Assembly: GCA_905235335.1 (NCBI GenBank)
Contig: CAJOKZ010000032.1
Span: forward strand, 1-42,007
Length of the DNA: 42,007 nucleotides
Direction: 5' to 3'
DNA from: an uncultured Succiniclasticum sp.
Lineage (GTDB): Bacteria > Bacillota > Negativicutes > Acidaminococcales > Acidaminococcaceae
Shown here: piece by piece, positions 39,802 through 41,045 of the stretch
Layout of the letters: each line of letters opens with the position of its first letter
Numbering within the stretch: position 1 is the first letter of the stretch
The notes under the pieces: generated by a model
What the model was told of the DNA's origin: nothing
Database searches by the model: none
Seen by the model: the letters and a program-made list of their open reading frames with translations, nothing else
Made by a program: the position numbers and the translations under genes

Positions 39802-39974
39802 CGTTACATCGGGCGTTACATAGTGGTGTTACACCCCCTGAAAACTCAGTATTCATGCGGTTTTCCGCATGGTCTTCACAGGGCGTTACATGGGGCGTTA
39901 CATTACCCGTTATATTTCGCGTTACAGTATCGGTTACGTTTTCTGTTACATTGCGTGCTGCATTTTTCGTTACG
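39802..39974. repeat. 12-bp-phased GTTACA repeat array with internal hairpin
   Basis: GTTACA-type hexamers start at 39803, 39815, 39828, then at 39885, 39897, 39909, 39921, 39933, 39945, a degenerate one at 39957, and 39969. The second block keeps an exact 12-base step over eight units. The fuller consensus is CGTTACAT followed by four variable bases. Between the blocks a perfect hairpin CATGCGG-TTTT-CCGCATG lies at 39854-39871. The units are too short for CRISPR and lack equal spacers. The pattern is like iterons or a protein-binding array. Confidence 0.85.
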
Positions 39975-40049: not shown

Positions 40050-40324
40050 GGTATTAATTTTTGAGACTGGCGTACCGGCAATGCCTTCTGCCTAATTCAG
40101 TTTGCCCCTGCAATGGGCGGCTGGGGCCAGTTCTCAATACTCTCGAAGCAGTCCACGGAAACATACTTCACGCCGTTTTCGGATATTATTCCACTCCGTT
40201 TCCACAACGTAACTCAATATCTGCAGGACGATGTCCGACAGGAACCGTCCTGTCAGTATCATGCAGTTCTGTTCAGCATTTAGCTTCTTGCCAAAACGTA
40301 TTACAATGCTTTGGGCCCACACTG
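40050..40324. other. Gene-poor segment, no supported feature
   Basis: No gene is supported here. Short frames exist on both strands: a plus-strand frame of 89 codons at 40061-40330, and a minus-strand one of 62 codons at 40134-40322 starting MWAQSIVIRFG. Neither has a ribosome site or a family pattern I recognise. It may be the remains of a gene cut by the adjacent palindromic element. Confidence 0.4.
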
Positions 40325-40493
40325 TTTTAAGGAGACGCTGATTAAATGAGTTTGTGCGATGACCGAGGGCTTTTTGCGACTGACAAGAAAATGGCCCTCA
40401 ACGCAGCCGTAGCTGCGTTGAAGGCCATTGCCGCAGTCAGTCACAAAAAGCACCGGTCAGCGTGCAGACGAATTAATCAGCGTCTCCTTAAAA
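40325..40493. mobile_element. MITE-like palindromic element with 15-21 bp terminal inverted repeats
   Basis: The ends are perfect inverted repeats, 40325-40345 and 40473-40493, with TTAA then GGAGACGCTGATTAA at the left. The whole 169 bases fold on themselves: the inner arms TGACCGAGGGCTTTTTG and the inverse of CAAAAAGCACCGGTCA pair with few mismatches, and the centre is AACGCAGC-CGTA-GCTGCGTT. If TTAA is the target duplication, the element proper is 40331-40487 (157 bp). It carries no transposase. GGAGACGCTGA-type ends and YTAR targets recall the IS5 group. The right end provides the stop codon of the 40488-41045 gene. Confidence 0.8.
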
Positions 40494-41045
40494 CTCGCTC
40501 AGCACAACCGATCCGTCTTCCCCGCTGGCGTTGATAGAATAATACCGCGTCTTTCCGTTGGCGTCCACATAAGAAAATCCGTTGTTGGGAATGCTGCCGA
40601 TCAGCGAGATCTTTGCCAGCAGCGGACGCTCCGGGCGCAATGTATCCTTCGTATACAGCTCTTTGATCAGGAAGACCGGTTTTCCGTCGGATCCGAATTC
40701 TTTCAGGCTGAGGGCTAGGATCTTAAAATCCTGCACTGGCCGTTTGGCAACAAAGACGATGCCTGTACTGTGTTCCGTCTGGCTTGTCACCACGGTGTCA
40801 TGGTCAGCCAGGGCCACGTCGCTTTCCCAGTTTGCCTCAATCTCTGGCGTCGCGTTTTTGCGTGCCCGGGTGCCGGCTTCCAGCGCCACCGCTTTCGTCC
40901 CTGCAGGATTGGCCGGGGCGATTTCGCATACCCCGTCCCTGCATACCGCAGACAGCGGCAGCATGGCGTTCCCGGGTTCCGCGCCGCAGACGGACAGTCC
41001 CGCCATAAGAACAGCGGTCATGATACCAGTCGCAAGCTTTTTCAT
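40488..41045 (-). CDS. Secreted protein of unknown function, stop codon inside MITE end
   Basis: The 185-residue protein has a signal peptide (MKKLATGIMTAVLMAGLSVCGA, cleavage probably near residue 22); LSVC is a poor lipobox because a valine precedes the cysteine. The mature part has AVCRDGVCEIAPANPAGTKAVALE and a C-terminal region with FKILALSLKEFGSDGKPVFLIKELYTKDTLRP and NGFSYVDANGKTRYYSINAS, which reads like a small beta-rich periplasmic domain. I do not recognise a family. GGGAGG stands before the ATG and a promoter just upstream. The final codons (SEF and stop) run into the palindromic element, so the original C terminus may have been different. Confidence 0.75.
   Translation of the reverse strand: MKKLATGIMTAVLMAGLSVCGAEPGNAMLPLSAVCRDGVCEIAPANPAGTKAVALEAGTRARKNATPEIEANWESDVALADHDTVVTSQTEHSTGIVFVAKRPVQDFKILALSLKEFGSDGKPVFLIKELYTKDTLRPERPLLAKISLIGSIPNNGFSYVDANGKTRYYSINASGEDGSVVLSEF

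Follow-up and report, generated by a model that had tools for sequence, protein, structure and literature searches.

Does the insertion of a mobile element account for the position at which a gene ends, when that gene stops exactly at the edge of a long palindrome? The window analysed here is a 42,007-nucleotide stretch of DNA from an uncultured Succiniclasticum sp. In it, a gene for a 185-aa protein with a signal-like N terminus, as judged by eye (40488-41045, minus strand; no Pfam family at E≤1), reads directly into such a palindrome. The first-pass annotation had taken the palindrome for a MITE that supplied the stop codon, may have shortened the protein and may now serve as its terminator. 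We conclude that a MITE inserted at the stop codon in the ordinary way, and that the truncating reading is refuted. In full, our preferred reading is that an IS5-type non-autonomous MITE, mobilised in trans now or formerly, inserted at the stop codon and left the protein unchanged (probability roughly 0.88). A transposase of the IS5 family (NF033581 kind) would have moved the element into a TTAA overlapping the stop codon of the gene. Duplication of this target would have kept both stop and protein, with the coding sequence now followed immediately by a hairpin of 157 bp.

The sequence and coordinates first given for the palindrome (40325-40493) were right, and these limits include two extra bases on each side that extend the palindrome by chance; the tighter limits are those of a 157-bp core at 40331-40487 (plus strand). 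The core is bounded by perfect 15-bp terminal inverted repeats (TIRs) at 40331-40345 (plus strand) and 40473-40487 (minus strand), and is flanked on both sides by TTAA (40327-40330 and 40488-40491), of which the right copy holds the TAA stop of the gene. Self-complementarity is nearly complete. The core folds into a hairpin of -112.5 kcal/mol, against a mean of -51.96 for shuffled sequences (z -14.0), and none of 200 shuffles equalled it. No transposase is encoded inside, the ORFs of at least 60 aa that overlap the core being two (62 and 96 aa), both extending beyond it. The element is therefore short, transposase-free and TIR-bounded, as is typical of a MITE. Within the window, the 15-bp end motif has two exact matches; a third appears when 3 mismatches are allowed, a tolerance at which one further match is about chance level. 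A covariance model of the hairpin (R1) matched the window copy with 145.3 bits, this copy (L001) being among the source sequences of the model, and it found no convincing match elsewhere in the window (one 26-base match at E 0.1). Two minor features lie close by. Just past the element, a 62-aa ORF on the minus strand (40134-40322) has no Pfam match and may be a gene remnant, and degenerate 12-bp repeats around CGTTACAT lie upstream of the element at 39802-39952.

The genome-wide copy count proposed in the first-pass annotation yielded 28 full-length, dispersed copies by blastn in the element's own genome (a draft of 2.08 Mb in 116 contigs), and two further copies (L028, L029) that are truncated where a contig stops. 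The remainder of the 78 blastn rows were fragments, or matches to these palindromes on the reverse strand. The TIR pattern occurred 81 times with at most one mismatch, and the reversed control pattern 0 times. Blastn detected the element in 11 of 14 genus genomes, the genus here meaning Succiniclasticum-like rumen bacteria, and weakly (E 6e-4) in 1 of the 47 other relatives searched. Exact matches to a 27-base pattern were found in 30 stretches of named genomes, namely Succiniclasticum ruminis DSM 9236 and MAGs of uncultured Succiniclasticum, Acidaminococcaceae and Selenomonadales, with one of the 30 titled uncultured Clostridia; red deer, reindeer, goat or water buffalo appear in several of the titles. 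Searches of plasmids returned 2 short unrelated matches only, phages gave no match, and viral contigs gave no match to one exact pattern.

Insertion by transposition left a clear trace in the flanks. Among copies of 100-174 bp in the genus genomes, counted where at least 60 bp of flank was available, with loci L070-L102 left out and identical stretches merged, 44 of 59 carry an exact 4-bp direct duplication, which is absent in the other 15. When flanks were paired at random the mean was 16.6 and the maximum 25, and 0 of 5000 shuffles reached 44. Where the left 4-mer is not itself a palindrome, it is matched directly in 17 of 26 copies and inverted in none, so the flanking repeat is a target site duplication and not the end of a longer palindrome. 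The duplicated sequences were TTAA (27), CTAA (5), TTAG (4), TTAT (3), TAAA (2), ATAA (1), CTAT (1) and CCAG (1), and 36 of the 44 (TTAA, CTAA or TTAG) fit YTAR. An excerpt of PMC10359306 gives YTAR as the target that IS5 duplicates, and both the presence of a duplication and its 4-bp YTAR form agree with an IS5-type MITE. Outside the set of 59 there were three shorter elements (one with a duplication) and four longer ones (two with).

What, then, did the insertion do to the gene? A longer C terminus could have been removed and a stop codon supplied, and this is suggested by a reading frame that stops exactly at the element and by two paralogues (L080, L081) that are 7 residues longer at the C terminus. 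The orthologues speak against it. All nine that were aligned (L071-L079, from the genus) stop at the same alignment column as the 185-aa protein, a result that had been named beforehand as refuting the truncation; the last residue at this column is F in eight of them and L in one, and the stop is TGA in seven and TAA in two. Nor did the element bring in the stop. The TAA sits in the duplicated 4-bp target and is thus also present in the reconstructed empty site, where the computationally joined flanks read GAG TTT TAA, an unchanged gene end. Because the TAA lies within the duplicated target and the orthologues end alike, the protein is unshortened, and a truncating insertion is barely credible. 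An R1 match close behind the gene was found at only one of the nine orthologous loci (L071), about 90 bases downstream of the stop. On the side of the element away from the gene, the adjoining 14 bases share 10 with the sequence that follows the stop codon in 3 of 15 relatives, a likeness that 11-14 of 1000 shuffles matched before correction for the 15 tries. Other genus genomes also hold C-terminal fragments related to the 185-aa protein (L082-L085), two of them with in-frame stops. At 3 of the 30 own-genome copies (L001, L022, L026) a flanking ORF stops within the element or at its border. In L022 and L026, around 1501-1667, the ORFs end within it, and a changed C terminus of the flanking ORF is possible there.

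The hairpin may now act as transcription terminator of the 185-aa protein gene, though at rather less than even odds. An inner stem of 18 pairs with a T-rich tail, TTCTTGTCAG, does lie directly downstream on the strand of the gene (40390-40429, minus strand), and is terminator-like by consensus match only. Against this role, the 1.4 kb considered contain 4 sites of this kind, compared with 1.9 (sd 1.4) in shuffles, and the full hairpin has no T-run behind it. The copies, which are mostly intergenic, also show no strand preference, since those between tandem genes lie with the genes' strand in 9 cases and against it in 12. The remaining copies of the 30 lie between convergent or divergent genes (6) or have no neighbour (3). 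These contexts were taken from simple longest-ORF calls, in which overlaps of about 60-130 bases reflect overextended starts.

The IS with the same ends that the first-pass annotation proposed to look for was found in part: insertion sequences with similar ends occur in other genera of the class, but none in the 14 genus genomes searched. The first of them, L143 (identical to L173), came from TIR-guided inspection of transposase loci in other genera, and further loci were found by searching with its protein. At 4 of the 31 loci examined, the end pair was accompanied by a 4-bp duplication. These accepted elements are L179 (1,263 bp, TTAA), L173 (1,225 bp, TAAA), L174 (1,228 bp, TTAA) and L194 (1,235 bp, TTAA), the last with stops in its transposase. 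Transposases of L143/L173 and L179 scored 303 and 318 bits against NF033581 (cut-off 140), and L143 contains the domains DUF772 and DDE_Tnp_1. The NF033581 type corresponds to the IS5 subgroup of the family. One end of L179, GGAAATACTGATTAATTC, differs from the family end GGAAACGCTGATTAATTC (L004) at 2 of 18 places and from the right end of the window copy at 3 of 18, so that the MITE has its ends in common with an IS5-family element carrying an NF033581 transposase. Beyond the ends, MITE and IS have no common sequence, and interior comparisons gave short chance matches only. Together, the copies, the 4-bp duplication and the IS with similar ends bear out the original identification as a MITE.

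IS and MITE can also be compared where they reside together. One genome (G271) holds both an IS and 159-bp MITEs. In g52/g70 the IS (L194) carries CTGATAAA instead of CTGATTAA, and the resident MITEs have CTGATAAA on both arms in 13 of the 14 matches read out and on one arm in the fourteenth; these 14 came from 22 match rows, the other 8 being 6 opposite-strand duplicates and 2 partial matches. Only in g52/g70 do MITE ends clearly follow the resident IS, and in g65 and g68 an IS of another lineage fits the MITE ends equally well or better. The own genome, a draft, yielded no partner by PF01609, PF05598 or IS5 protein at E≤1e-20, and the partner may have been lost from the genus or be missing from draft assemblies. 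Several candidates were set aside. The genus transposases with PF01609 and PF05598 have mismatching ends. An IS5-type gene in G008 (L086) showed no matching end pair, but may have had one that lay beyond its contig, which starts 68 bases before the gene. The 1,061-bp end pair of L112 encloses a 210-aa ORF that matches no Pfam family above cut-off, and L112 is thus no recognisable IS. L190 has a chance end pair (6 of 15 matches), and L195:1408-2416, with an apparent TTCA duplication, consists of the remains of an IS5 element, what looked like its right end being an entire MITE. L180 and L183, whose end pairs show no exact duplication, were left uncounted.

The MITE is a member of a large family in which length and hairpin fold stay the same across many genera of the class. 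The end motif GGARNCRCTGATTAA was found in 92 of 379 Negativicutes genomes, up to 107 plus 90 times in one; the reversed control pattern occurs once each in about 19 genomes, a level at which single TIR matches are meaningless. Seven genomes from six other genera contain 15 distinct elements of 158-162 bp with the same arms, and 11 of the 15 have an exact 4-bp duplication. The covariance model R1 matched 122 of 380 Negativicutes genomes in 36 of 102 genera at E≤1e-5, where matches near the threshold may be other long hairpins, and 72 genomes in 22 genera at E≤1e-20; 14 of the matched genomes had supplied sequences to the model. The scan scored no more than 7 candidates in any genome and so gives presence and not copy number, and the best-scoring places listed were nearly all 157-162 bp long, with a few of 152-183. 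Interior arms point to common descent within two sets. Likeness between the same arms was 0.65-0.77, against 0.59-0.66 between opposite arms, among g1, g30, g65 and g68, and 0.84-0.88 against 0.66 between g48 and g69 (first two elements per group). Since same-arm likeness is the higher, the elements within each of these sets are homologous and did not arise independently. Comparisons across the two sets, and those with g92, showed a small difference or none. Searches of Rfam gave 4 matches, all far below gathering scores, and no description of the family was found among the papers listed in literature searches on Succiniclasticum, Selenomonas, Negativicutes and IS5 MITEs.

Why the fold persists can be approached through the pattern of change. 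In an alignment of 23 hand-chosen elements from 7 genus groups (A2), two-sided changes are seen at 32 of the 48 pairs, where shuffles give 22.7. Two-sided cells number 183 (54.4 in shuffles), 93.6% of cells are paired (76.0% in shuffles), and covariation scores 0.499, compared with 0.179 for shuffled and at most 0.128 for slid alignments. Paired positions of the 28 copies resident in the own genome show instead 61 one-sided changes, 21 keeping and 40 breaking the pair, and 8 two-sided ones. Two-sided changes thus predominate between genera and one-sided changes within one genome, and from this we infer that elements are screened for the fold at the time of movement, and that the fold erodes in resident copies. 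A tentative extension is that the hairpin is itself a working part, in that IS5-type transposases would mobilise only elements with the fold and a length of about 159 bp, which then decay. The fold might, for example, bring the two ends together during transposition, and would be retained as well-folded, symmetric elements amplify. The main rival to selection on the fold, to which we give less than even odds, is that the hairpin is maintained by arm-from-arm repair and not by selection. In such quasi-palindrome correction, one arm is repaired from the other. Repair finds support in the same resident copies when scored on another structure, where two-sided cells exceed shuffles (9 against 2.8), and in copies L001 and L002, which are more symmetric in the centre than others. 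It is opposed by the excess of one-sided over two-sided changes (61 against 8) in these copies.

The strongly covarying stem, together with the non-coding nature of the copies and their position mostly between genes, would also suit a repeat or RNA element selected by the host, such as a processed or regulatory hairpin, that is no transposon at all. Exact 4-bp target duplications and IS-like ends argue against this, as does the lack of any Rfam match near gathering score, and we regard a host element as very unlikely. With IS5-family elements of the NF033581 type, the family shares ends starting GGA..C.CTGA..AA and the 4-bp YTAR-like duplication; it differs in having no transposase, in having the ends alone in common with them, and in forming one long hairpin. 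An excerpt of PMC10969869 lists RUP and BOX of Streptococcus pneumoniae, and ERIC, as bacterial MITE families that are, like the present one, short, non-coding, mostly intergenic and built on inverted repeats. These families have other ends and other hosts, whereas the elements described here recur over many genera with a constant length (157-162 bp) and the same covarying fold. The palindromic elements of Rickettsia, as outlined in the same excerpt (PMC10969869), are similar in being about 150 bp long, palindromic and present in many copies, but are found in frame inside genes, unlike the mostly intergenic copies of this family.

For the locus in the window, the IS5-type MITE reading means that a mini-transposon can hit a stop codon harmlessly, as the codon is itself part of the target that is duplicated. 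The family is also a clean test case for the question of whether folding affects MITE movement, combining a single family of one length, dozens of copies per genome, a candidate partner IS and contrasting patterns of change.

Rearranged and reduced forms were also observed. The ends of the element themselves contain the TTAA target, and at L110:1755-1998 a full copy is nested in the TTAA within the terminal repeat of a second element, so that three end repeats now follow one another at intervals of 15 bases. BOX, RUP and SPRITE likewise insert into one another, according to the excerpt of PMC10969869. Among the short forms, 16 of the 19 stretches taken keep both ends around a short centre (26-70 bp), and 5 of these 16 have exact duplications. 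Five internally deleted forms of 44-70 bp (L292, L293, L294, L288 and L289) retain both ends and exact 4-bp duplications; two of them, L292 and L293, measure 70 bp and occupy separate sites in the own genome (C65 and C17). Five others (L283, L284, L285, L286 and L299) are bare 26-bp palindromes that consist of the two end repeats alone and have no exact duplication. For annotation, such repeats matter in that they can break assemblies and mislead the calling of gene ends in genomes of rumen Negativicutes. In one genome (G238), many contigs start some 35-50 bases ahead of an end repeat, as though assembly had been interrupted by a high-copy element bearing these ends.
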